Origin: Peristeroidobacter soli
Lineage (GTDB): Bacteria; Pseudomonadota; Gammaproteobacteria; Steroidobacterales; Steroidobacteraceae
Direction of reading: 5' to 3'
NCBI RefSeq assembly: GCF_004138485.1
Contig: NZ_RYEV01000004.1
Span: 1,052,803-1,116,802, forward strand
Length of the DNA: 64,000 nucleotides
Each line of letters opens with the position of its first letter. The first letter of the stretch is position 1. The notes under the pieces were generated by a model. It was not told where the DNA came from, did not search any database, and worked only from the letters and a program-made list of their open reading frames with translations. Shown in pieces: positions 990 through 26,550 of this stretch. The position numbers were made by a program, and so were the translations under genes.

Positions 990-1808
990 ATGAACGCTTC
1001 ATTAACAAATGTTCAGCGCCGCCTCACCGCCGCGATTGCGGTCGCCTGCACACTTGTAGCCGCTGCCTCGCCGGTGCTGGCGCAAGAGCCGGAGCATCTG
1101 CGCATGCATGGCTTGGCGCACGAAGACCGCATGCATGAAGACCGTGGCATGCCCGAACGTGGCTTCGATACGCAGCGCGAAGGAGCCCTGCCGGAACGTG
1201 GCTTCGATACGCCGCGTGAAGAAGCCCTGCCTCAACGTGGCTTCGATACGCTGCGTAACCCGCTGCCGCAATCGCCGGCACAGCGCTATGCGCCCGCTCG
1301 CTTCACGCCGCCTCATGGCGCCGTTGTTACGCACCTGCCGCCACAGACGATCGTCGTTCAACACGGGGGCGTGTCGTACAACGTTTACAACGGCGTGTGG
1401 TATCGCCCCTATGGCCCGCGTTTCACCGTAGTCGCAGCGCCCATCGGCGCGTTCGTTCCGATGCTGCCTTCGTTCTACACGACGGTGTGGTTCGGCGGCC
1501 TGCCCTACTACTTCGCCGACGATGTCTATTACTCGTGGCGCCCGGAGCAATCGGCCTATGAGATCGTCCAGCCGCCGCCGGGCGCACCGCAGCCGGTGGT
1601 CAACGGCGATCGGGTCTATGCCTATCCGCTCGAAGACCAGAGCCCGACGCAGCAGGCCCGCGATCGCTACGACTGCCACGTATGGGCGAGCGACGAAATC
1701 GGCCTCGCTTCGTCACAGACCACGAACTCCATGACAACCGCGCAATCGGCGGACTACGACCGCGCGCTGACCGCCTGTCTCACCGGCCGGGGTTACAGCG
1801 TGAAGTGA
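990..1808 (+). CDS. DUF6515-type secreted protein with N-terminal 13-residue repeats
   Basis: Predicted exported protein of 272 residues of unknown function. A clear Sec signal peptide covers about residues 1-31, ending at VLA-Q. Three tandem 13-residue units built on the motif PERGFDT follow at residues 55-93. The central part (about 118-180) has the GVWYRPYGPRF, VVAAPIGAFVPMLPSFYTTVWFGG and PYYFADDVYY-type aromatic segments typical of the DUF6515 family of small periplasmic or envelope proteins. The C-terminus (about 215-272) carries two cysteines and a QSADYDRALTACLTGRGY segment common in such proteins. An AGGAG ribosome binding site seven bases before the ATG fixes the start. No operon partner is evident. 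Family assignment is from memory of motifs. Confidence 0.8.
   Translation: MNASLTNVQRRLTAAIAVACTLVAAASPVLAQEPEHLRMHGLAHEDRMHEDRGMPERGFDTQREGALPERGFDTPREEALPQRGFDTLRNPLPQSPAQRYAPARFTPPHGAVVTHLPPQTIVVQHGGVSYNVYNGVWYRPYGPRFTVVAAPIGAFVPMLPSFYTTVWFGGLPYYFADDVYYSWRPEQSAYEIVQPPPGAPQPVVNGDRVYAYPLEDQSPTQQARDRYDCHVWASDEIGLASSQTTNSMTTAQSADYDRALTACLTGRGYSVK
1152..1268 (+). repeat. Three in-frame 39-bp repeats
   Basis: Residues 55-67, 68-80 and 81-93 of the DUF6515-type protein form three consecutive 13-residue units: PERGFDTQREGAL, PERGFDTPREEAL and PQRGFDTLRNPLP. The DNA copies are clearly similar, which suggests recent slippage duplication in the N-terminal linker just after the signal peptide. Confidence 0.8.
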
Positions 1809-14821: not shown

Positions 14822-16369
14822 TCATCTGTTGAGACAGAGCAACGGTGCCAGCCACTGTTGGTAGGGAGCCCACTTGGGCGCATCGCGAATCACCACACCA
14901 CTGCGCACTTGAACCGCGCTGGCGGTGACGACCCCGCGACGGCGTGAATCAAACTCCAACATCGCCGGATCGAACGACAGGCCGCAGAATTCCGCCACCC
15001 GCCGCAGCTGCGTTTCCGGTTCTGTCAGGAGCCGCGCATATTCCACATCGAGGATTCGCCCGGCAAACCGCGCGTGCCAGTGCTTCATCAACTCAGCATA
15101 CCAGCCGTAATAGTCCGCGAGCTCACCCAGGTCATAGCTGTAGGGATTCGCGTCGGAAAACAGCTCCCGCAGATTGGAGAAACAGGTCGCCACCGGATCG
15201 CGAACCATGTGCAGAATCTTCGCCCGCGGTAGAGCGCTCGCGATGAAACCGATGTTCAGAAAGTTCGAAGGCAGTTTGTCGGTGAAGTATCGCGAGCCGC
15301 CCAAGCGCCATTGAACGCCGTCGAGATAGCGCTGGCCCGCGACGCTCAGATCGACGCCATGCGCGCGCTCCACCAGCGTCGCATCGATCACGCCCTTGCA
15401 GTGGTGCCCCGTCGCGTAACGCATCCCGCTGGTGAAGTCATATAACTCGCCGAGCGCCGCAACCTCCGGATGTCCGGCGAGCATCTGCTCCAGCAAGGTC
15501 GTACCGGATCGATGCATGCCGACGATGAAGATCGGCGTTGGACCGGTATCGGCGCCGGTCGCCTCGCCCGGTTCGAACGTCGACAGGACGTCGAACAGCT
15601 GTTTCATCCTGCGGCCGTCATAGTTCAATCGCGATCGTTTCGCGCGACACGCCTGCATCAATGCGTGCCACGCCTCGTCGTATCGCTGCAAATCATCGAG
15701 CTCCTTGTGGAGCGCGAAGGACAGCAACGCGATGTCGTCCGCTGTGCGCCCCGGACGCGTCAACTCCCGCCTGATCGCGTCGATGTGATTGCGCTCGGCC
15801 GTCTGCCGCCGCAGCCCCGAGCGCAGCCAGTATCCCTGCGCGATCTCAGGCGCGCGGCGAATGGCGCGCTCCACATCTTGCCCGGCTTCATCGAAGCGTC
15901 CGAGATAGGTGAGAATCTGCGTACGCGCGAGCAGCGTCGTCGGATAGTCAGGGTCGGCCCGCCGCGCCTCATCGAGATAATCGATGGCGCGCTCCGGAAG
16001 ATTCAGATAGCTCAGCTGCGCCCCGGCGGCGATCAGCAAAGGAATGGACATCCTCGCCGGCGGCCCAGCCCGTTCGATGCACGCCAACAGCTCCGGCCCT
16101 CGGTTGAACGTGCGCAGGCGCGGCAGCAGCTCGGTCAGAATCTTTTCATCCGTCGTCCCGGTTCGTGCCGCGGCGAGCGCGAACTCTTCGGCGCGACGAT
16201 AGTTCCCGCGCAGCGAATACATATAAGACAGCTGCACGAGCGTGTAAGGCTCGTTTGGCACCTGCGCCAGAACCTTTTCGTAGGTGGCAATGGCACCGTC
16301 CCAATCCTGCTTGGTAGCCAGCGCCTCGGCACTGGCCAGCATCGGTCGCACACTCGCGGGAATTGCCAT
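14822..16369 (-). CDS. TPR-containing sulfotransferase family protein (second copy in operon)
   Basis: Predicted sulfotransferase of 515 residues that would move a sulfuryl group from PAPS to an unknown acceptor. The N-terminal half (1-265) is helical with TPR-like pairs, for example DWDGAIATYEKVLAQVPNEPYTLVQLS and GNYRRAEEFALAAAR. The C-terminal half is a sulfotransferase domain: the 5'-phosphosulfate-binding loop PIFIVGMHRSGTTLLEQ is at about 279-295 with Arg287-Ser-Gly-Thr-Thr, and a 3'-phosphate-binding stretch VRDPVATCFSNLRELF lies downstream, with FTDKLPSNFLNIG between. No signal peptide is visible, so it is cytosolic. Its ATG overlaps the upstream paralogue's stop by 1 nt (TGATG), implying coupled translation. 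It ends 8 nt from the convergent DUF1003 fusion gene. Confidence 0.9.
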   Translation of the reverse strand: MAIPASVRPMLASAEALATKQDWDGAIATYEKVLAQVPNEPYTLVQLSYMYSLRGNYRRAEEFALAAARTGTTDEKILTELLPRLRTFNRGPELLACIERAGPPARMSIPLLIAAGAQLSYLNLPERAIDYLDEARRADPDYPTTLLARTQILTYLGRFDEAGQDVERAIRRAPEIAQGYWLRSGLRRQTAERNHIDAIRRELTRPGRTADDIALLSFALHKELDDLQRYDEAWHALMQACRAKRSRLNYDGRRMKQLFDVLSTFEPGEATGADTGPTPIFIVGMHRSGTTLLEQMLAGHPEVAALGELYDFTSGMRYATGHHCKGVIDATLVERAHGVDLSVAGQRYLDGVQWRLGGSRYFTDKLPSNFLNIGFIASALPRAKILHMVRDPVATCFSNLRELFSDANPYSYDLGELADYYGWYAELMKHWHARFAGRILDVEYARLLTEPETQLRRVAEFCGLSFDPAMLEFDSRRRGVVTASAVQVRSGVVIRDAPKWAPYQQWLAPLLCLNR

Positions 16370-17967
16370 CAGCCCTGCAGTCTCGCAAGCATCGGTTGCA
16401 ACTGCCGCTCATAACGTTTCCATGCGCCGATGCCGCGCTCATGAATGCGCTCACGAACCTGACTGCTGCTGGCCGTCGAGACGGGGGCGCTGTTGCGTGT
16501 GATCTCGTGCAGAGCGCCTTCCCTGTCGAGACCGAGAAAGTCGAGCACCGCCGCCGCCATCTGCTCCGGAGCGCGCACCAGATCCTCGTAAGAGACGATC
16601 CGCACCGAGTCCGGCGCCCTGCTTTTCCAATACCGCAACCAGGTTCGGACCCGCAGACCATGATCCGCCAGATCGCTCAACGTATAGCTGTAAGGATACG
16701 CATCCGCCTGAAACAGCTCCTTCAGATTGGAGAAGCAGGCGTCCGGCGGATCGCGCTGTAGACACAGCACGCGCGCCGCGGGTAACGCTTGCAGGATGAG
16801 CGGCAGGTTGAACAGATTCTGGGGATTCTTGTCGATCACGTAGCGGCCATTCGTGGCCAGGCGGCGCACGCGCTGCTCGTAGAGATGACCGACCTTTTTG
16901 AAATCCAGCTCTCTTATCAACTGCAAGCGATCGCCATGAAGCGGCGATCGGAAGAAGTGCCCGGACGCTTCGCTCACCGCCGCCGGGAAATCGTTGCGCT
17001 CGCCCAGCGACTGCACCGCTGAGTGATTGCTGAGGATACGATCGAGCAGCGTCGTCCCGGTGCGCGGCATGCCCACGATGAAGATGGGAACGAGCCCGGC
17101 GGCCACGGCCGGCTCCGGCAGCGACACTGGCATTCGTATCAATGCCTCCAGCCGCGACGCCTCGAGCAGCGAATCGAACGCCACCCGGCGACTCATGATT
17201 TCAGCTCCGCTCGTCAACGCCGACCACGCCTCTTCCCGCCGATCCGCCGCATCGTATTCTCGAAACAGCGCGTAGAAAAGATGGGCCTGCTCGATGCCGT
17301 TGGCTTGAACCCGGCTCAACGCATCGAGGATACGGACCACGCGAGCCAACGGCGGCCGCGCCTTGGAATGAGTAGCCAGCGCCCAATGGGCATCGGCAAA
17401 GTCCGGCGACAGGGCGAGACACGCTTCATAGTCTCTATCGGCCGCCTGCATGTCGCCCAGATAACGGTATACATTCGCGCGCGTGAAGATCAGCAAGGGA
17501 TGGGCATGCACCTGTTTGGCCATCGCCTCGAGAAAACGTAGTGCGCCTCGATAGTCACCCGCCAGCCACAGCTGCTGCGCAAGAACCGCGGACTGGGAAA
17601 CGACATTCGGGTCCGACCAATCCACCGCATTGATCAGCGAGACCACCGCCGGCTCTTCGGCAAAGTCCAACAGGCGGGCGGTCACATAACCGATATGTCG
17701 GGTGCTGCCATGCTCGCGGACCGCTTCCGCCGCTCGCAACGCATGTTCTTTCGACGTGAGATAGCGATCGGCGAGCTGCTCGAAGCGCGACAGGCGCAGC
17801 CGGGCCGGAACGTGGCGAGGCTCGAGGATCAGAATCGATTCATACAACGCGCGTGCCTCGTCCCACAGGCCGCGCAGCTCATATTGTTGGGCACGCGCCC
17901 AGAATTCGCGAGGAGACACGGCCGCCGACGGGCGGCCGTGTGAAGGAAATCCGTTCCCCTCGTTCAA
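16369..17967 (-). CDS. TPR-containing sulfotransferase family protein (first copy in operon)
   Basis: Paralogue of the next gene, 532 residues. TPR-like repeats fill about residues 20-270 (LRGLWDEARALYESILILEPRH, AGDYRGALRFLEAMAK, GDMQAADRDYEACLALSPDF). The sulfotransferase domain has PIFIVGMPRTGTTLLDRIL with the PAPS loop at 301-308, then YVIDKNPQNLFNLP and LQRDPPDACFSNLKELFQ. The reading frame begins with TTG at 17967, overlapping the TGA stop of the TonB receptor gene; a GTG at 17919 is an alternative start. The overlap argues for a receptor-sulfotransferase-sulfotransferase operon. TPR-sulfotransferases are common beside Oar-like receptors, but the acceptor substrate is unknown. Confidence 0.88.
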   Translation of the reverse strand: MNEGNGFPSHGRPSAAVSPREFWARAQQYELRGLWDEARALYESILILEPRHVPARLRLSRFEQLADRYLTSKEHALRAAEAVREHGSTRHIGYVTARLLDFAEEPAVVSLINAVDWSDPNVVSQSAVLAQQLWLAGDYRGALRFLEAMAKQVHAHPLLIFTRANVYRYLGDMQAADRDYEACLALSPDFADAHWALATHSKARPPLARVVRILDALSRVQANGIEQAHLFYALFREYDAADRREEAWSALTSGAEIMSRRVAFDSLLEASRLEALIRMPVSLPEPAVAAGLVPIFIVGMPRTGTTLLDRILSNHSAVQSLGERNDFPAAVSEASGHFFRSPLHGDRLQLIRELDFKKVGHLYEQRVRRLATNGRYVIDKNPQNLFNLPLILQALPAARVLCLQRDPPDACFSNLKELFQADAYPYSYTLSDLADHGLRVRTWLRYWKSRAPDSVRIVSYEDLVRAPEQMAAAVLDFLGLDREGALHEITRNSAPVSTASSSQVRERIHERGIGAWKRYERQLQPMLARLQG

Positions 17968-20900
17968 AAGTTATAAACCAGCGAGAACTGGAATTCGCGT
18001 GGTGGCTGCAGCGACCGAGGCACGAGATACGTGCTCGCCGGCGTGCCCGTGGCGGCATCCTCCGCCCGATCTTCCACCGCGGTCTCCTCCTGCTGGTTGA
18101 AGACGTTGAACACATCCATCTTGGCGATCAATCCTTCGGCCCAACGCGGCGAGTACGCGAAGCTCAGGTCGACCTGATACGTCCAGGGCAGACGACCCGC
18201 CGTCCCTCGCGGCTTCGGCTCCGACGGACCATCGCGACCGCCCGCTACCGTCGTGCCACAGCGGAAGAACGACGAACCGTACGGGTGAATGCCGCCGTGA
18301 TACGGATACAGCACGCCCAGACAGTTCTTCGGCCGGCCGGACTGCACGGCCAGATTGGTACCCACCGAGACTTCGTCGGTCAGCGCATAGCTGCCGAACA
18401 CCTTGAAGGCATGACGGCGGTCGTTCGGCAGATACCCGTACGAGTCCACGGCCAGCTCCTTGTAATCGAAGTCCTGGGTGACGTTGGTGTCGTCCTGACC
18501 GATATCGGATTTGACGCCGCCTTCGGTATTGCCCTTGCTGTAGGCCAGCGTATAGGACGCCTGCACGAAGGTCCGATCCCAATTGCCGTCCCAGAACAAC
18601 TCCAGCGCCTTGTAGGTACGACGCGCCTTCGGCGACAACAGATCGCCGTCGATGGTGGTCTCGGTCAGCGTGCCGTTGCCATAGAAGTCCGTGAGAAACA
18701 CGGCATCCTCGCCGGGATTGAACATGCGGCAATAAGGGAAGCCGTTGTTCGGCAGCACGAACTGGTCCGGATCGAGCCCGGCGGCCACGCCCGCCTCCAG
18801 GATCGGGTTGTAGTCGCAGTTGTCGTCGATGGCGGCCTTCAGCTCGCGATAGATGGCACGCGCACCGATGTTCTGATGATTGGTGATGCGCATCTGCGCG
18901 CCGAGGATGTACTCGTCCTGATACATCGGATCCAGATTCTTCGAAGCGATCGTCTTGGCGTTCTTGCCTTCGCCGAACTCACCGTTGATGTAGCGGAACG
19001 TGCCGAGCGAGGTCAGCCCGGTGGGCGCACCCGTGGCCGGATCGACTCCGCTGAATGTGTAGTCCTCGCGAGTGAACAACGAAGCGCTCGCGCCGCGAAT
19101 CGCGACACTTGCCGTCAGTGGCAACGCATAGCGGCCGGCGTTGCCGTACAGCTTCATCGACGAGTCGCCCTTCACGTCCCAGGAGAAGCCGAGTCGCGGA
19201 CCGAACTGGTTGTTGATCTCGACGTAGGTCTCGCCCTGCCCGTTCAGGTTCTCGAAACTGTCCCAGCGCAGACCCGCCGAGAACAGGAATCGATCGGTGA
19301 TGTTCCAATTGTCCTCGACATAGAACGCGCGCTGCTTGACCTCCACGGTGGCGCCCTGATTCACGATCTGCTCGCGCACCACGTCGGCGCCCGCCGAGTT
19401 GGTCGAGTAACGCCACTGCCGGCCGCCTTCGATCGATTCGCCCGCGACCGACTCGAAGTCATCCAGGTCGTAGCCGAAGCGCACCAGGTGAGCGCCGAGC
19501 TGCCATTCGGCATCGACGCGGAACTGATCGCGCTCATCGCCCGCATCCTGGCGTTCGATGCTGCCCGCACTCGCGAAGGTCGACGTTACCGTGCAGCTGC
19601 TCGCATACGTACCGGTGAGCGCACGTCGCGCCGCTGGACGAGCGTCGACGATGACGGGACAGCCGGTCGCAGGCGTGTTGAGATCGCCGCTGTAGGCCAC
19701 GCGTCGCCCATCGGCCGTCGTCAGGTGCAGACCTCGCGAGTACTCGCCGTGACCATACAAAGCCGACACCGTCAGATTGTCGGTGATGTAACTGGTGTAC
19801 TTGCCCACGACATTCAAGCCACCGCTTTCTTCATACTGCGTGCCGATCAGGCCGAGCCGGTTGGCGCTGCCGAGCGTGTTCAGATACACCTTGCTGGTGG
19901 TCTCGTCCTCGTCGGAGAAGCCGGTCAGCTCGAACGAGTTGGCGTCGTTGATGTGCCAGTCGAGCTTCACCAGCCAGGTCGGCGTTTCGGTGTTCTGACT
20001 GACATTGGCCGGCTGCGTGACGTTGCCCCAGCGGTCCTGATCGTGCTCGGAGTAGCCGATCAACGCATAGGCGAACAGTTTGTTCTGTATCAGCGCGCCG
20101 CTCGCCCAGACATTGGCCGTCCACTCCCCGGTCTCCTCCTCGGAGTTGATGGAACGTACCGTGCCGAAGCTGCTGGGCTCGAGCGGGTTGGAGTACATGT
20201 AGTTCTTGGTCTTGCTGCGCAGGGCCGCCGGCGACCAATAGACACTGGACCCCGACTCGAACTCGTTGGTGCCGCGCTTGGTCGTCTGGCTGACGACGCC
20301 GCCCAGCGAACGGCCGAACTCCGCGCCATAGCCGCCGGTTTTCACCTGCTGCTCGGCGATCGCTTCGAACGGAATCCGGGAGAAATTCAGACCGCGGAAC
20401 GAGTTCGTCACATTGAAGCCGTTCACGTAGTACTGGTTCTCCGCGACCGAGGAGCCGCCGAACGACGGCAGCTTACCCTCCGAGAATGCGAAGTCGCCGC
20501 GTACCGCGCCAGGCGCCAGCAGCGCCGCCGACGTGAGATCCCGCAGGACCGGGATCTTCGACAGCTGATCGGCGGACAGAACTGTCACCGATTCCACGGA
20601 AGAAACATCGATCGGGTTGACGCGCACGGCGGTGACGACGATGTTTTCCATCTGCGCCGAGCCGGCGTTCGTCGTCGCTACAAAGCTCACTGGCGTACCC
20701 GTGCCGGCGCTGACCAGCACGCCGTCCCGGATCACCGTCGTGCCATCCTGATGGCGCAATGTGACTTTGTATCTGCCCGGCGAGAGCGCGGGCACTCGAT
20801 ACGAACCATCGGCACCCACGGGAATTTCCCGCCGGAACCCGGTCCCTTCGCCTTCGACGATGACGGTGTCTCCCGAGGTCGCCTGGCCAAACACGCTGCC

Positions 20901-21068
20901 GCCCGTGCTTTGGGCGAACGCCGCTGGCGTGGTGGCAATCAGGGTGGTGGCAAGCGCGCCGGCCAGCCGACTGGCACTGCGGCGCCCCGCTTGAGAAGGA
21001 TCGGCTGCTGTCCCACTGACCGAAAGCGCGTGCTTCACGGCCAAGGCAAGTGAATTTCTTATCAACAT
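17964..21068 (-). CDS. Oar-like TonB-dependent receptor with carboxypeptidase-regulatory-like domain
   Basis: Outer-membrane active transporter of 1034 residues. The chosen ATG at 21068 has an excellent GGAGGAG site; a longer start at 21116 has none. A long signal region ends near FAQ (about residue 53). A carboxypeptidase-regulatory-like beta-sandwich follows (GSVFGQATSGDTVIVEGEG to about 130), then a plug with VSSVESVTVLSADQLSKIPVLRDLTSAALLAPG, and then a large barrel with many aromatic strands, ending in the terminal Phe of SLVYNF that the BAM machinery recognises. The N-terminal module places it in the Oar group rather than the siderophore group. It heads the operon with two TPR-sulfotransferases and is divergent from a gene encoding a TonB-like transducer, which may energise it. 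The ligand cannot be deduced. Confidence 0.92.
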   Translation of the reverse strand: MLIRNSLALAVKHALSVSGTAADPSQAGRRSASRLAGALATTLIATTPAAFAQSTGGSVFGQATSGDTVIVEGEGTGFRREIPVGADGSYRVPALSPGRYKVTLRHQDGTTVIRDGVLVSAGTGTPVSFVATTNAGSAQMENIVVTAVRVNPIDVSSVESVTVLSADQLSKIPVLRDLTSAALLAPGAVRGDFAFSEGKLPSFGGSSVAENQYYVNGFNVTNSFRGLNFSRIPFEAIAEQQVKTGGYGAEFGRSLGGVVSQTTKRGTNEFESGSSVYWSPAALRSKTKNYMYSNPLEPSSFGTVRSINSEEETGEWTANVWASGALIQNKLFAYALIGYSEHDQDRWGNVTQPANVSQNTETPTWLVKLDWHINDANSFELTGFSDEDETTSKVYLNTLGSANRLGLIGTQYEESGGLNVVGKYTSYITDNLTVSALYGHGEYSRGLHLTTADGRRVAYSGDLNTPATGCPVIVDARPAARRALTGTYASSCTVTSTFASAGSIERQDAGDERDQFRVDAEWQLGAHLVRFGYDLDDFESVAGESIEGGRQWRYSTNSAGADVVREQIVNQGATVEVKQRAFYVEDNWNITDRFLFSAGLRWDSFENLNGQGETYVEINNQFGPRLGFSWDVKGDSSMKLYGNAGRYALPLTASVAIRGASASLFTREDYTFSGVDPATGAPTGLTSLGTFRYINGEFGEGKNAKTIASKNLDPMYQDEYILGAQMRITNHQNIGARAIYRELKAAIDDNCDYNPILEAGVAAGLDPDQFVLPNNGFPYCRMFNPGEDAVFLTDFYGNGTLTETTIDGDLLSPKARRTYKALELFWDGNWDRTFVQASYTLAYSKGNTEGGVKSDIGQDDTNVTQDFDYKELAVDSYGYLPNDRRHAFKVFGSYALTDEVSVGTNLAVQSGRPKNCLGVLYPYHGGIHPYGSSFFRCGTTVAGGRDGPSEPKPRGTAGRLPWTYQVDLSFAYSPRWAEGLIAKMDVFNVFNQQEETAVEDRAEDAATGTPASTYLVPRSLQPPREFQFSLVYNF

Positions 21069-21445
21069 CGACTGCTCCTCCGTAAGAGATGTTGGTTTTT
21101 TGCGCCCCATCCGCATCCGCGCTGACGCGATTGGAATCTCCGCTACCGGTGTCTCCCCCTTAACTTTTGCCTCATCTACTGGCCGGTGCCGGACGGAAGC
21201 CGTTGCACGGACGCATCAAAGCGTGTTTCGAGCATACAACTGCAATTTATCGAATGAAAGCCAGATTGCTTGATGTCGCATGAAGTGATAAATCGGAAAA
21301 AAACACGCACGAAACCAGCGCATTGCTGTATCCATTCCGGGGCGTAACAAATCGGTTCGTTGTATACACGTGGCGCTTTCACCACGTTCAGTTTGATTTG
21401 ATCGCGACCGTCGCTCGGGCGATTAGCAGATATGGCTCGCAACCA
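21069..21445. other. Divergent intergenic region (377 bp)
   Basis: This gap separates the start of the Oar-like receptor (minus strand) from the start of the pseudokinase-TonB gene (plus strand) and must hold both promoters. It is clearly more AT-rich around 21220-21330 than the flanking genes. I see no convincing -35/-10 pair, no strong palindrome and no small gene. A GTATACAC segment near 21361-21368 and an in-frame-region AAGGAG at 21459-21464 are the only salient words. Confidence 0.6.
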
Positions 21446-24400
21446 ATGAATCAAAATCAAGGAGATAAAGGTCGAATCCAATCTGTGTCCGGACCGAATA
21501 TCAGACGGATGAGCGCTGAACCGAAACCCACAACACTCGGCACCGCCTGGACGACATGGGAGCACCAGATCGTCGACGGCCGCTTTACTTTGCGGCGTCA
21601 TCTGGGCGGCTCGGACCACGCTGCAGTCTTTCTCACCGAGCACAAGGCCAAGAATCTCGCCGAGGCCGCGATCAAATTCGTGCGCGCGGATGCGTCGCAG
21701 GCGAAGACTCTGCTGGTGCATTGGCAAGCGGCCATGGCGCTGTCCCATCCTCATCTGGTGCAACTTTTCGAGGTGGGTCGATGGCAGTTCGCAGGGCAGG
21801 ACTATCTGTTTGTCGTGATGGAATATGGCGACCAGACGCTCGCCGAGATCCTTCGTCGGCGGGCGCTGAGCGCGGAAGAAACATTGGAGTTATTGCCGCC
21901 CGTTCTGGACGCGCTGACGTTTCTGCATCGGCGGCAACTGATTCATGGCCGGCTGCGGCCGTCGAATCTCCTGGCCGTCGGGGATCAGCTCAAACTAGCC
22001 AGCGATACGATTCGCCGCGACGACCCTGGCGGCTCGACCGCCGGCGATGTTTGGAGCCTCGGCGCGACGCTGGTCGAGGCGCTTTCCCGGCGGGTGTTAA
22101 TCGCGGGCGATCACTCATTTAATATGGCGTGGTTGCCGAGTGGTTTGCCGGCGTCGCTGGTGGAGACCGTGAGTCGCTGCTTGGCCCCGTCGGTCGCGGA
22201 CCGCCCGTCGGTCATCGAGCTCAGAGCTGAATATAAACTTCCCTCGCCTTCCTCAGAGGCGACGGCTGCGCCAAAGCCATCGCCCGGCACTTCGCATGCT
22301 GCTGCCACTCAAGCGGCACCGCCGAGTGCTTCGCGGCCCAGCTCTCCACCACCGTCGGTGCCCAACTCTTCGCAAGCTAACGGCCTGGCTCAGCCGACGT
22401 CGATTGCTTCGCGAGCACACGCCTCGGCTCAGCCGACAGCATCACGAACAGACGTTCCGCCTCAACCGGCACCGATTGCCTCGCGACCAAGCACTCCACC
22501 TCAGCCGGTGCCCAACGCTTCACACGCAAGCGCCACGGCTCAGTCGACGTCGATTGCTTCGCGAGTAAACGCTGCAGCTCAATCGACACCGAGTGCCTCA
22601 CCAGCAGGCGCTTCATCTCAATCGGCTCCCATTGCTTCGCGACCAAGCTCTCCACCTCAGCCGGTGCCCAACGCTTCACACGCAAGCGCCTCGGCTCAGT
22701 CGACGTCGATTACTTCGCAAGTTAACGCTGCAACTCAGCCGACACCGAGTGCCTCACCAGCAGGCGTTTCGTCTCAACCGGCACCCATTGCCTCGCGACC
22801 AAGCACTCCACCTCAGCCGGTGCCTAACGTTTCACACGCAAGTACTGCGGCTCAAGCAACGTCGATTGATTCGCGAGTAACCGCTCCCACTCACTCCACA
22901 CCGACCGCCTCATCAGCAAGTATTTCGTCTCAATCGACGCCCGTTTCTTCGCCACCAGGCACTCCACCTCAGTCGGTGCCCAACGTTTCACACGCAAGTA
23001 CTGCGGCTCAAGCAACGTCGATTGATTCGCGAGTAACCGCTCCCACTCACTCCACACCGACCGCCTCACCAGCAAGTATTTCGTCTCAATCGACGCCCGT
23101 TTCTTCGCCACCAAGCCCCCCATCTCAGCCGGTGCCTAACGCTTCGCACGCGAGTACCGCGGCTCAAGCGACGTCGATTGCTTCGCAAGTAGGCGCTTCA
23201 ACTCAGCCGACACCGACTGCCTCACCAACAGGCGTATCGTCTCAATCGGCGCCCGACGCCTCGCGCACGGGTGCTTCGGCTCAGTCGACACCCAGCACTT
23301 CGCAATCGGTCGCTCCGCCTCAATCGACACCCAGCACTTCGCAATCGGTCGCTCCGCCTCAATCGACTCCCGGCATCTCGCAATCGATCGCTCCGCCTCA
23401 ATCGACTCCCAACGCCGCGAAAACGGCCGTTCGGCCTCAGCCGGCAACCGAAGCCGTACGCGAGACCGCTCGGAGTCAGCCGACATCCACTAGTACGCAG
23501 GTAAACACCGCCACTCAGCCGGAGATCGACGTCCTGCGACCAAGCGCTCCGCTGCGATCGATAACGGGCGCCACACAATCAGGTACTCCGCCTGAGCCAG
23601 TACTCAAGACCGTACGCGAAGTCGCTCCTGTTCAATCGGCACTTGGTATCCCTAAAGGGAGCGCCCCGCCTCAAACGACACCGAGCACTTCACACGCAAG
23701 CGCACCGCTCCAGCCAGTACCGAGCACTTCGCGAGTAAACGCGCCGTCGCAGCCAATATCAGGGGTGTCGCGGGAAATTACTCCGCCTCAGCCGTCGCCG
23801 AGTACTTCGCGAGCAAGCGCTTCACCTCAGCCAACCCCGAGCAGTTCGCAAGCGAGCGCTCCGTCTCCGCCGGACCCGAGCACTCCGCAAGTAAGCGCGC
23901 CGTCTCAGCCAATGCCAGGAGCATTGCGAGAGATCACTCCGCAGCACCAACCGCAGAGCACCTCGCGACCACGCGCATCGTCACCGCCAGCACCGAGTGC
24001 TTCGCAACCAATCACGCCGGTGGCGACTCCAGAAGAGGCGCGAACTAGCGCGCCGAAGTGGCGTTTGTTCGTATCGGGCATAGCCGCTGCCCTGTTGTTA
24101 TTGCTCGCGATCTGGGGTGGATCTCGGTTCGCGAATGAATCTGAACCGCCCTCGCAAACAACCGCCATCCAAAACCCCACGCCCCCAGCACAATCAGCAA
24201 CCCAGCCGATAGCCAAGCCTGAACCGACGCCCTCTCAACCGGCGGAGCCGGCAAAACAATCCGCCCAGCCACCAGCAGCGAACGTACTGAGCGAAGTCCT
24301 CCCCACCGTTCCAGCAAAAATCCAAAACAAAATCCAAGGCCGCGTCTACGTCACGGTGCGCGTGCTCGTGGATCCCAACGGCAATGTCGTCGGCGTCCTG

Positions 24401-24559
24401 ATGGACAACCCCGGCCCGAGCAAATATTTCGCCCGCCTCTCCGACCAGGCCGCGAGGCAATGGCAATTCGTTCCGGCAGACACGGAAGACTCCCGCGTGT
24501 GGCTACTGCGTTTCCAATACACCCGCGACGGCGTCGCGGTCCGCACGATCGAGCAGTGA
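21446..24559 (+). CDS. Pseudokinase - 13-residue repeat array - TM - TonB C-terminal domain protein
   Basis: A 1037-residue single-pass membrane protein with an unusual architecture. Residues 45-262 form a protein-kinase-like fold: LRRHLGGSDHAAVF (degenerate Gly loop), Lys77 in AAIKF, VVMEYGDQTLAEIL, and GDVWSLGATLVEAL. The HRDLKPxN motif is HGRLRPSN (167-174), losing the catalytic Asp, and DFG is replaced by ASD in LKLASDTIRR, so it should be a pseudokinase. Residues 301-857 are 43 tandem 13-residue Pro/Ser/Gln/Ala-rich units. A membrane helix (LFVSGIAAALLLLLAIWG) lies near 873-890. Residues about 951-1037 match the TonB C-terminal fold: IQGRVYVTVRVLVDPNGNVV, then ARLSDQAARQWQFVPA. The kinase-like part and repeats should be cytosolic and the TonB part periplasmic. 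Start is uncertain: ATG 21446, GTG 21485 and ATG 21509 are in frame, none with a good ribosome site. Confidence 0.85.
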   Translation: MNQNQGDKGRIQSVSGPNIRRMSAEPKPTTLGTAWTTWEHQIVDGRFTLRRHLGGSDHAAVFLTEHKAKNLAEAAIKFVRADASQAKTLLVHWQAAMALSHPHLVQLFEVGRWQFAGQDYLFVVMEYGDQTLAEILRRRALSAEETLELLPPVLDALTFLHRRQLIHGRLRPSNLLAVGDQLKLASDTIRRDDPGGSTAGDVWSLGATLVEALSRRVLIAGDHSFNMAWLPSGLPASLVETVSRCLAPSVADRPSVIELRAEYKLPSPSSEATAAPKPSPGTSHAAATQAAPPSASRPSSPPPSVPNSSQANGLAQPTSIASRAHASAQPTASRTDVPPQPAPIASRPSTPPQPVPNASHASATAQSTSIASRVNAAAQSTPSASPAGASSQSAPIASRPSSPPQPVPNASHASASAQSTSITSQVNAATQPTPSASPAGVSSQPAPIASRPSTPPQPVPNVSHASTAAQATSIDSRVTAPTHSTPTASSASISSQSTPVSSPPGTPPQSVPNVSHASTAAQATSIDSRVTAPTHSTPTASPASISSQSTPVSSPPSPPSQPVPNASHASTAAQATSIASQVGASTQPTPTASPTGVSSQSAPDASRTGASAQSTPSTSQSVAPPQSTPSTSQSVAPPQSTPGISQSIAPPQSTPNAAKTAVRPQPATEAVRETARSQPTSTSTQVNTATQPEIDVLRPSAPLRSITGATQSGTPPEPVLKTVREVAPVQSALGIPKGSAPPQTTPSTSHASAPLQPVPSTSRVNAPSQPISGVSREITPPQPSPSTSRASASPQPTPSSSQASAPSPPDPSTPQVSAPSQPMPGALREITPQHQPQSTSRPRASSPPAPSASQPITPVATPEEARTSAPKWRLFVSGIAAALLLLLAIWGGSRFANESEPPSQTTAIQNPTPPAQSATQPIAKPEPTPSQPAEPAKQSAQPPAANVLSEVLPTVPAKIQNKIQGRVYVTVRVLVDPNGNVVGVLMDNPGPSKYFARLSDQAARQWQFVPADTEDSRVWLLRFQYTRDGVAVRTIEQ
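22346..24016 (+). repeat. 43 tandem 39-bp coding repeats with 156-bp higher-order structure
   Basis: Reading the protein in register gives 43 consecutive units of 13 residues (one of 11), with a loose pattern xPQxxPxxSxxxA. Units 1-24 (22346-23275) are organised as six blocks of four distinct unit types, each block 156 bp (the first 150 bp). The marker CACACGCAAG or its variant recurs at 22521, 22677, 22833, 22989 and 23145, exactly 156 bp apart. Units 25-27 (from about 23276) are near-identical 39-bp copies, and units 28-43 are more diverged. The frame is never broken. Confidence 0.95.
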
Positions 24560-24561
24560 CG

Positions 24562-26550
24562 TCAGCGAGCCACGACCTCCGCCGGAGACGACTTGAGCTG
24601 CAGGGGCGATTCGAAATCGGCGAGATAGAGCAATCGATCCGGCGCCAGTCCATTCACCAGAGCGATGCGCGCCCGGGCAGGCGCAGAGCCGCCCGGCGGA
24701 CCTTCGGCCAATACAGCGACGCCTCGGTCGAAACCACTCACCTCACTGAGACGAGCCGCCTGCGCCGGCGTACCAACAGACTGCGTCGTGCCGAACGCAC
24801 CACGCGTCGTAACAACGAGCACAGGATAAGGAATGAGACCGGAGAACTGTGCCTGCTGTACGAGCACGATGTTTCCCGTCGAGTCGTACCAAGCCGTACC
24901 GCCAGCCGCGACCATCGCGTCAGACCCGCCGACGAGATCCCGCTCGAATATCTGACCGCTCCTCGCATATAACAACGCACCGTCGTCAGGCCGCAGCCCA
25001 ACGACCTCCGCCGAAGTCGCCACTTCACGCGGATTGGGCGTCGCCGACACCTCCGCAACGTAAGCTCGCGTCGCCAGCGCCGCCGTGCGAACGGTGTAAC
25101 CCACACGCTGCCCGACAGCTCCGCCAATCGTGCCCCCCGTCAATGAAACCGTGCTCGCGCTGATCGTTTCGCCGAACGCCAGCGTGTGGCTCACCTGCAA
25201 TTCCGTCTGCAACTGGCGCGCATCGATAAAGAACAGCCCCTGCCGTCCGGCACGATTCGCCTGAATCAAAATCGACGATTGATTCGCGGCGATCGAGTAA
25301 TCGAGCACGTCATCCGACGTCGCCGGATCGCTGAGCGCCGAAACCGCAACCGTAGTACTGGGACCAGCCGGGGTCACCGTGTAGAGCGACTTGGTACCGC
25401 CGCCCGCAACGGGAGAGGCAAGAAAAAACAAACGCGAGTCGTTCGAGAAGCGCAGCCGGCTGGCGAACACGGCGTTCGTCGGGCTCACCCGGGCCAGCGC
25501 GCCCGGCGTCGCGGCGTTGAAAACATACACACCGTCGACGCTTCCCACCCGTGCAACCAACGCAATCCACTGCCCATCAGGGCTGACAATGAACTGATCC
25601 GTGTTGCTCGCATCGAGCGGCAACGTCGCCCCCGCCGGCAACGGCACCGCGCCTCTCTGAACCGGCGCCGTGGTGCGCACGAACCCAAGATCGACTCGAG
25701 CGGCATTGGTTTGATCTTCCCGTCGATAAGCGACGGTCGTGCCGTTCCGGGACGCGGCGAAGCCACGCAGCCGCATGGTTCCTTCGGTCGCGGCCGTCAG
25801 CACGGTGGGAGCGGAAATGAAATCGCTGAGATAGATTTCAGAAGAACCATTCGCCGCCGGATCGCCCGCGAATACGACGCGAAACGGCTCGACGCCGACG
25901 AACACCGCGGCGATGCCGATGGCCGAGGCGGCGCTCGAATCGGTCACGCGATATTTGAAACGAGTCACGCCCTTGAAGCCCGCCGGCAGCGCGCCGATGC
26001 TGATCGAGGCATTCGCATTGACGGTCGCAGTCCCGGCGAGCGGCCCCTCTTCAATCGTCACGGTGAGCGGATCGGCATCCGCATCGGTGTCGTTCGCTAA
26101 AACGGTAACATTCGCCAGTGCCGCGCCGTCCGCGCGCAAGGCGTCGTTCGTTGCCACGGGAGCGCGATTCGGATGCACGTTGATGTTGACGACGCCGGCA
26201 ACCGTGTTGCCACCCGCATCGCTCACCTGAACCCGAAAACTGTCGTCGCCGAGAAAACTCTGCGAAGGCCGATAAACAAAGGCACCGGCGGGATTGAAGC
26301 TGACGAGGGTGCCGCTGCCGGGATTCGCGACGACGGAGAAGGTGAGCGCCTCGCCAGTGGGATCGGTCGCGGCCACCTGGCCCTGCAGATCCGTGTTCTG
26401 TTTCGTGGAGAATGCCAGTGGCCCGAACGCGGGAGGTGCATTCGAAGCGCGGCCGCCGCCCCCACCTCCGCCGCCACACCCCGTCAGACTCAGTACGACG
26501 ACCCCAATCAACGCGTGGTTCACCAACGTCTGCTTCGAGGCGTTCTTCAT
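24562..26550 (-). CDS. Lipoprotein with Ig/cadherin-like repeats and a beta-propeller-like region
   Basis: Envelope lipoprotein of 662 residues. The lipobox SLTGC places the lipid-modified cysteine near residue 25, followed by eight glycines as a flexible tether. Residues about 38-225 contain two tandem Ig/cadherin-like modules of the kind with NRAPVATNDALRADGAALANVTVLANDTDADADPLTV. Residues from about 230 look like a TolB/WD40-type propeller with blades such as FIVSPDGQWIALVARV and RFSNDSRLFFLASPV. Such proteins bind ligands or partners at the cell surface; no catalytic site is visible. It faces the pseudokinase-TonB gene tail to tail with a 2-nt gap. Function is unknown. Confidence 0.8.
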   Translation of the reverse strand: MKNASKQTLVNHALIGVVVLSLTGCGGGGGGGGRASNAPPAFGPLAFSTKQNTDLQGQVAATDPTGEALTFSVVANPGSGTLVSFNPAGAFVYRPSQSFLGDDSFRVQVSDAGGNTVAGVVNINVHPNRAPVATNDALRADGAALANVTVLANDTDADADPLTVTIEEGPLAGTATVNANASISIGALPAGFKGVTRFKYRVTDSSAASAIGIAAVFVGVEPFRVVFAGDPAANGSSEIYLSDFISAPTVLTAATEGTMRLRGFAASRNGTTVAYRREDQTNAARVDLGFVRTTAPVQRGAVPLPAGATLPLDASNTDQFIVSPDGQWIALVARVGSVDGVYVFNAATPGALARVSPTNAVFASRLRFSNDSRLFFLASPVAGGGTKSLYTVTPAGPSTTVAVSALSDPATSDDVLDYSIAANQSSILIQANRAGRQGLFFIDARQLQTELQVSHTLAFGETISASTVSLTGGTIGGAVGQRVGYTVRTAALATRAYVAEVSATPNPREVATSAEVVGLRPDDGALLYARSGQIFERDLVGGSDAMVAAGGTAWYDSTGNIVLVQQAQFSGLIPYPVLVVTTRGAFGTTQSVGTPAQAARLSEVSGFDRGVAVLAEGPPGGSAPARARIALVNGLAPDRLLYLADFESPLQLKSSPAEVVAR

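Follow-up and report, generated by a model that had tools for sequence, protein, structure and literature searches.

A probable receptor-type pseudokinase with a TonB-like periplasmic domain in Peristeroidobacter soli, and relatives with other periplasmic domains

What might a protein do that joins a kinase fold stripped of its catalytic residues to the C-terminal domain of TonB? The question is raised by a gene of Peristeroidobacter soli (Steroidobacteraceae, Gammaproteobacteria) that lies in a stretch of 64,000 nucleotides of contig NZ_RYEV01000004.1, referred to here as the window. The gene is a single open frame of 1037 residues with no internal stop (window 21446-24559, + strand), confirming that the four parts reported in a first-pass annotation of the DNA, namely a degenerate kinase, a giant repeat linker, one membrane helix and a TonB C-terminal domain, all lie in one frame. 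This order of parts is shared between two phyla. The periplasmic domain is exchangeable: the P. soli protein and some from Acidobacteriota have TonB_C, most of the acidobacterial members found have SPOR and one has DPBB_1. We think it rather probable that the protein is a receptor-type transmembrane pseudokinase that links the state of the envelope or cell wall to a cytosolic partner, and an envelope sensor or scaffold is more likely than an energy transducer because relatives from a second phylum have a domain that binds the cell wall where this protein has TonB_C.

The kinase-fold domain and its topology

The N-terminal part of the protein matches Pfam Pkinase (PF00069) at 52.3 bits against a cut-off of 31.7 (E 7.1e-14), and the top Foldseek match of its AlphaFold model is PknB (1mru; E 5.8e-16, TM score 0.79). 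The model has a predicted local distance difference test (pLDDT) score of 91.9, with two of the five models near 76, and a predicted TM score (pTM) of 0.88. The best NCBIfam match is a PASTA kinase model, NF033483, at 61.9 bits over the kinase part only against a threshold of 450, and a Pfam scan of the protein found no PASTA domain. The residues of an active Ser/Thr kinase are missing, as HRD reads H-G-R, DFG reads S-D-T and the four residues deleted relative to PknB in a HMMER alignment include the helix-C Glu; the claim of a kinase fold without the catalytic Asp and DFG is thus supported by Pfam, the model, Foldseek and the residues R169 and S186. Asp187 was considered as a displaced DFG Asp, the spacing from Asn to Asp being equal by eye to that of PknB, but HMMER pairs Asp187 with the Phe and Ser186 with the Asp, and because of this pairing the DFG Asp is treated as lost.

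The kinase domains of 26 close homologues are 45-79% identical to that of the window, with 27 invariant columns. Residues invariant in the 27 close rows (these homologues and the window) include Lys77, the beta3 Lys that had been noted as retained, together with Asn174, Asp187, Asp201 and Arg253, whilst the position of the HRD Asp is taken by Q in 19 rows, R in three, G in three, E in one and A in one, and none of the 26 homologues has intact kinase motifs. A wider alignment of 85 rows included three intact kinases recovered by the same profile (L098, L113 and L122), which have HRD and DFG and in which neither TonB_C nor SPOR was found, and leaving these out gave 82 pseudokinase rows. The HRD Asp is present in none of the 82, the DFG-Asp position is Ser in 60, as in the window, and Asp in one, and the numbers of rows that retain the other residues are 57 for Lys77 (with Arg in 18 more), 61 for Asn174, 74 for Asp187 and 81 for Asp201. 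The full set of Lys77, Asn174 and Asp187 is found in every one of the 29 Steroidobacteraceae rows; among acidobacterial rows it is complete in 14 of the 17 of TonB type and in 5 of the 36 others. These counts come from related sequences rather than independent events. Judged by these residues the TonB_C branch may bind nucleotide and the SPOR branch mostly should not.

It could be proposed that the protein is still an active kinase which uses Lys77, Asn174 and Asp187 for catalysis or for a non-phosphorylating reaction, and the joint retention of the three in every Steroidobacteraceae row would fit this. The universal loss of the catalytic Asp in the pseudokinase rows, the deletion that takes the helix-C Glu, the Ser that has replaced the DFG Asp in most rows and the scarcity of the three residues together in the other acidobacterial rows all speak against such activity, which we regard as quite unlikely.

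One hydrophobic stretch is found in the window protein and exactly one in 24 of 27 sequences; L011 and L026 have a second weak or overlapping stretch, L027, whose frame is cut short, has none, and no case of two or more helices placing the repeats outside was found among the 26 close homologues, so that the proposed single helix is supported. The kinase side would be cytosolic, from the domain order and, weakly, from the net charge around the helix, which among the 45 TonB-type members is higher on the kinase side in 25, equal in 10 and lower in 10. The order of kinase, linker, helix and periplasmic domain is the ordinary layout of a receptor-type Hanks kinase, and the first-pass view of it as a reversed TonB is not borne out.

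That the Pro-rich repeats precede the helix was read correctly. Identity within the linker is 0.34 at lag 13 and 0.48 at lag 52, against a maximum of 0.20 in 1000 shuffles over lags 1-60, and the corresponding DNA repeats are 39 and 156 bp. The 13-residue repeats therefore stand, and as the register runs 46 times the 43 units originally counted were close. The distance from kinase to helix is 609 residues in the window protein, 277 in L009, 359 in L010 and 83 in L011, and over the 45 TonB-type members the kinase-side linker ranges from 14 to 609 residues; because the median is 33 residues, the giant repeat linker is a local expansion and no family trait. A second 39-bp tandem repeat, of 2.7 copies, is present elsewhere in the window (1150-1255).

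The C-terminal domain and the question of energy transduction

The Pfam score of the C-terminus for TonB_C (PF03544) is marginal, being 19.6 bits in the whole protein and 24.9 for the domain alone with a cut-off of 24.6, and that for NCBIfam tonB_Cterm is below its cut-off (23.4 vs 27.1). The TonB fold announced for this end is nevertheless borne out by the structural model (pLDDT 92.0, pTM 0.82), for which the top Foldseek match, and the sole one at E<=0.001, is the E. coli TonB C-terminal domain (1xx3; E 3.5e-4, TM score 0.68). TonB_C was matched at E<=0.1 by every one of the 26 C-termini aligned, those of the window protein and of 25 homologues (the truncated L027 has no C-terminus and was left out), and a C-terminus for which no TonB fold is predicted was not encountered among the 26 close homologues.

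Does the fold imply the function? As a TonB-type energy transducer the protein would couple through its helix to ExbB/ExbD and work outer-membrane receptors with its C-terminus, the pseudokinase regulating from the cytosol. The match to the E. coli domain favours this, as does a divergent gene for a TonB-dependent receptor (17964-21116, - strand) that starts 329 bp away. The His of the membrane helix has a role in the coupling of TonB to ExbB/ExbD, and another TonB feature is a YP motif where the C-terminal domain begins. Both were counted in the TonB-type members and in a control set of ordinary TonB_C frames, for which 28 TonB_C loci were taken from three genomes, 11 being dropped for a locus truncated by the end of its contig or a frame that continued beyond it, and 17 kept. 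A His in the 19-residue helix core is absent from the window protein and present in 1 of 45 members, compared with 12 of 17 control frames, the other five ordinary frames doing likewise without it; YP is found in 0 of 45 members and 14 of 17 control frames. The SxxxH motif occurs in 1 of 45 and 1 of 17, and on the control counts His and YP therefore discriminate between the two sets and SxxxH does not.

The periplasmic spacer, which in a transducer has to be long enough to reach the outer membrane, gives a mixed picture, with a median of 58 residues in the 45 members (range 30-111; 58 in the window) and a range of 33-245 in the control, and is shorter than 84 residues in 33 of 45 members but only 1 of 17 control frames; in the 12 members at or above 84 residues it is as long as in the 16 ordinary frames that reach this length. 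On His and YP set against the control, and with spacer lengths that partly overlap, TonB-style energy coupling does not appear to be supported. Furthermore, seven neighbours of the gene in the window, the receptor included, had no match at E<=1e-5 by tblastn in the 26 homologous loci, 14 of which have flanks of about 8 kb on both sides, a search run with no positive control, and in relatives TonB_C is replaced by SPOR or DPBB_1, which suggests a role in binding the envelope or cell wall. We therefore consider the outer-membrane energiser suggested at first to be unlikely, and take the envelope sensor or scaffold as the preferred reading.

The same genome encodes a kinase-less relative of 221 residues, L062, on another contig (G000:C5:239073-239339; L062:1498-2160, - strand), which has a similar helix and a TonB_C domain of the same subtype, preceded by a short N-terminal part in which an RLVIRIKL-type stretch is conserved. 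This subtype was found in 19 of 150 genomes of the family (E<=1e-20), and in a genus sample of 14 genomes five have both forms and three the kinase-less form only, with eight kinase-less proteins seen once L151, the tail of a kinase-bearing gene on a broken contig, had been excluded. Two large proteins on contig C6 of the same genome (L002:1-1749 and L004:1-1740) have a helix and a strong Pfam TonB_C match; their N-termini appear receiver-like by eye, Pfam finding no receiver at E<=1 and a sub-threshold TPR in L002. Two acidobacterial pseudokinase-TonB_C proteins, L085 and L087, have an extra N-terminal part that resembles a degenerate receiver by eye, with none found by Pfam at E<=1.

Relatives in two phyla, exchange of the periplasmic domain and gene surroundings

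The genome searches scored the best 7 to 18 candidates per genome and their counts are lower bounds. A profile of the kinase domain had a single match per genome (E<=1e-40) in at least 16 of the 150 genomes sampled from the family to which the window belongs, and it matched at least 1 of 369 genomes spread over the class, this one being the window's own (E<=1e-30). A profile scan of contigs returned 26 loci, from Steroidobacter, Peristeroidobacter, Steroidobacteraceae and gammaproteobacterial or proteobacterial metagenome-assembled genomes, plus L034, which is from a metagenome-assembled genome of the Bryobacterales (Acidobacteriota). At E<=1e-27 the order to which L034's genome belongs gave matches in at least 35 of 150 genomes, and its phylum in at least 21 of 297. 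Intact kinases account for one match in the order and two in the phylum, and genomes G795 and G803 are common to both samples; the assignment of these genomes to the Acidobacteriota rests on the label of L034 and on the database grouping.

The C-termini of 57 proteins (56 acidobacterial, including the three intact kinases, and the window) were compared with Pfam at E<=0.01, L084 being the same gene as L034. SPOR was found in 33, TonB_C in 17, DPBB_1 in one and TPR in one, the last an intact kinase, and the rest gave no match to any of them. DPBB_1, a lytic-transglycosylase-type barrel, is carried together with the pseudokinase by L138. Among the acidobacterial proteins, the 15 pseudokinase-SPOR proteins L106-L121, except L113, group tightly, and many of them have loops of the HEHIEPAN type; they are similar enough to be treated as one family in further work.

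On a quick tree of the kinase domain, with poor support for 31 of its 82 inner branches, at least two changes are required to account for the TonB_C and SPOR labels. In this tree the 29 Steroidobacteraceae rows form one clade among acidobacterial TonB-type rows, with a support of 99 in the Shimodaira-Hasegawa-like approximate likelihood ratio test (SH-aLRT). A directed transfer between the phyla was considered and set aside, as a constraint grouping the 12 nearest acidobacterial TonB-type rows was not rejected (approximately unbiased test, p 0.447).

Clustering of the proteins of 27 loci (the 26 homologues and 20 kb of the window), which was crude in that antisense shadow frames occur in places, the gene itself was missed in three of 27 loci and the receptor of the window was missed, gave no cluster spanning more than three loci besides the gene itself. 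In 20 further regions of the acidobacterial set there are MFS transporters in six, M61 peptidases in five, GH38 in four and YkuD transpeptidases in four, the shared neighbours being mixed and mostly among near relatives, with ten of 15 clusters named by Pfam.

The patchy occurrence within the family, the lack of conserved neighbours and the runaway repeat linker could be taken to indicate a decaying or passively retained fusion with no selected function. The invariant columns and the identity of the kinase domain over the 26 homologues argue against decay, as does the order of parts, which is the same in two phyla, and we hold this explanation to be very unlikely.

Within the window the features of the gene are located as in Table 1. 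Of the two possible starts Met22 is the likelier, since the homologues L009, L010 and L012 also have MSAEP close to their N-terminal ends; no clear ribosome-binding site that would decide between them was seen by eye. Downstream lies a convergent gene for a Big_9/cadherin-type protein (24562-26550, - strand). Upstream the TonB-dependent receptor gene is followed on its own strand by two TPR-sulfotransferase genes (14822-21116, - strand), and these three frames touch or overlap by a few bases.

Table 1. Location of the gene and its parts in the window
Feature	Position	Strand	Details and basis
Whole coding frame	21446..24559	+	1037 aa from ATG 21446; 1016 aa from the likelier ATG 21509
Hanks-type pseudokinase domain, residues 35-266, cytosolic by inference	21548..22243	+	Pfam, AlphaFold model, Foldseek PknB, 27-row alignment
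Retained beta3 Lys77	21674..21676	+	27/27 close rows; 57/82 wider rows
Degenerate catalytic loop HGRLRPSN, residues 167-174	21944..21967	+	Catalytic Asp lost; Asn174 kept in 27/27 close and 61/82 wider rows
LKLASD, residues 182-187	21989..22006	+	Ser at DFG-Asp position, Asp187 next; HMMER alignment to PknB
Pro/Ser/Ala-rich juxtamembrane linker, residues 267-866	22244..24043	+	46 registers of 13 residues, 52-residue higher order
Single transmembrane helix, core residues 874-892, no His	24065..24121	+	Hydrophobic-stretch count, core His check
Pro-rich periplasmic spacer, ~48-58 residues depending on domain start chosen	24122..24265	+	
TonB_C-fold periplasmic domain, residues 941-1037	24266..24556	+	Pfam, model, Foldseek

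Proposed role and comparison with known systems

How would such a receptor work? In the cytosol the kinase fold, its phosphotransfer chemistry lost, would serve a partner protein as scaffold or switch. The envelope would be read on the periplasmic side, by a domain connected to the kinase fold through the single helix and the flexible juxtamembrane linker. The pseudokinase would act solely by binding, signalling through its partner, for which MviN and FhaA may by analogy be a precedent. SPOR domains recognise peptide-stripped peptidoglycan (PMC6895207), and given the exchange with SPOR, the wall or envelope is probably what the TonB_C-like domain reads as well.

A number of points weigh against this role. 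Binding of the cell wall by the TonB_C-like domain rests on the SPOR exchange, which is an analogy; charge gives weak support for the orientation, being higher on the kinase side in little more than half of the TonB-type members; SxxxH does not separate these members from ordinary TonB_C frames, and some of them have spacers of ordinary length. In addition, the kinase-less relative in the genus indicates that helix and TonB_C can exist without the kinase, and no conserved neighbour that would name a partner was found among the 27 clustered loci or the 20 acidobacterial regions.

More tentatively, it may be suggested that these proteins form a modular envelope-sensing family that crosses phyla, with a fixed dead-kinase output and a swappable reader (TonB_C, SPOR or DPBB_1), in which the output of the TonB_C branch would depend on nucleotide through its Lys, Asn and Asp and the TonB fold would serve as a reader. 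Bacterial pseudokinases have been little explored by experiment, and a 2025 review describes seven families, with neither TonB nor SPOR named in its main text (PMC12599244). One dead kinase with alternative periplasmic readers offers a direct and testable route to finding out what it is that bacterial pseudokinases report. The family further suggests that a protein can have the TonB C-terminal fold and not be an energy transducer, a point relevant to the annotation of TonB_C proteins.

The layout of the window protein resembles that of PASTA receptor kinases of the PknB/StkP type, which consist of a kinase domain, a linker, one helix and an extracytoplasmic domain that reads the cell wall. PknB is its best match by both profile and fold; in contrast to these kinases the window protein has lost the catalytic residues and has TonB_C where no PASTA was found. 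With TonB energy transducers it has the C-terminal fold in common, and it differs from them in the order of its parts, the lack of the helix His and of YP, and the kinase fold of its N-terminal part. SPOR-domain septal proteins such as FtsN and DamX consist of an N-terminal part, one helix, a linker and a SPOR domain, which is the layout of the acidobacterial relatives; they have no kinase fold, however, and the window protein has TonB_C rather than SPOR. MviN has a MurJ-like flippase part, whereas the window protein has one helix only and no such Pfam match.

Membrane pseudokinases that act through partners are already described, and include MviN of mycobacteria, which FhaA regulates in peptidoglycan synthesis (PMC3989709), and EssB/YukC, which act in secretion (main text of PMC12599244); their membrane and periplasmic parts differ from those of the window protein. 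The seven families of the same review, ActPs1-3, GLW, CP1, DYD and DLHK, are, like the window protein, kinase folds with lost motifs, and its main text has no mention of TonB, SPOR or Acidobacteria. As described there, GLW proteins have GLW for HRD and have lost the beta3 Lys, whereas the window protein has HGR and keeps Lys77 and is not GLW; DYD proteins have a beta3 Arg and a DYD motif, whereas the window protein has Lys77 and SDT and is not DYD, although a beta3 Arg does occur in the 18 wider rows counted above; and CP1 and DLHK are without membrane regions, unlike the window protein (PMC12599244).

In the open-licence PMC literature searched, by titles and the starts of abstracts, no fusion of TonB_C or SPOR to a kinase or pseudokinase was described among the papers listed, in keeping with the earlier statement that no characterised system of this type was known. 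The terms "pseudokinase" and "SPOR domain" were found together in one open-licence PMC paper, where they are named separately (PMC3989709), and the available text of a paper on the evolution of TonB and TolA has no mention of kinases (PMC12204202). The membrane pseudokinase is known as a kind, and it is this family and the exchange of its periplasmic domain that look new.

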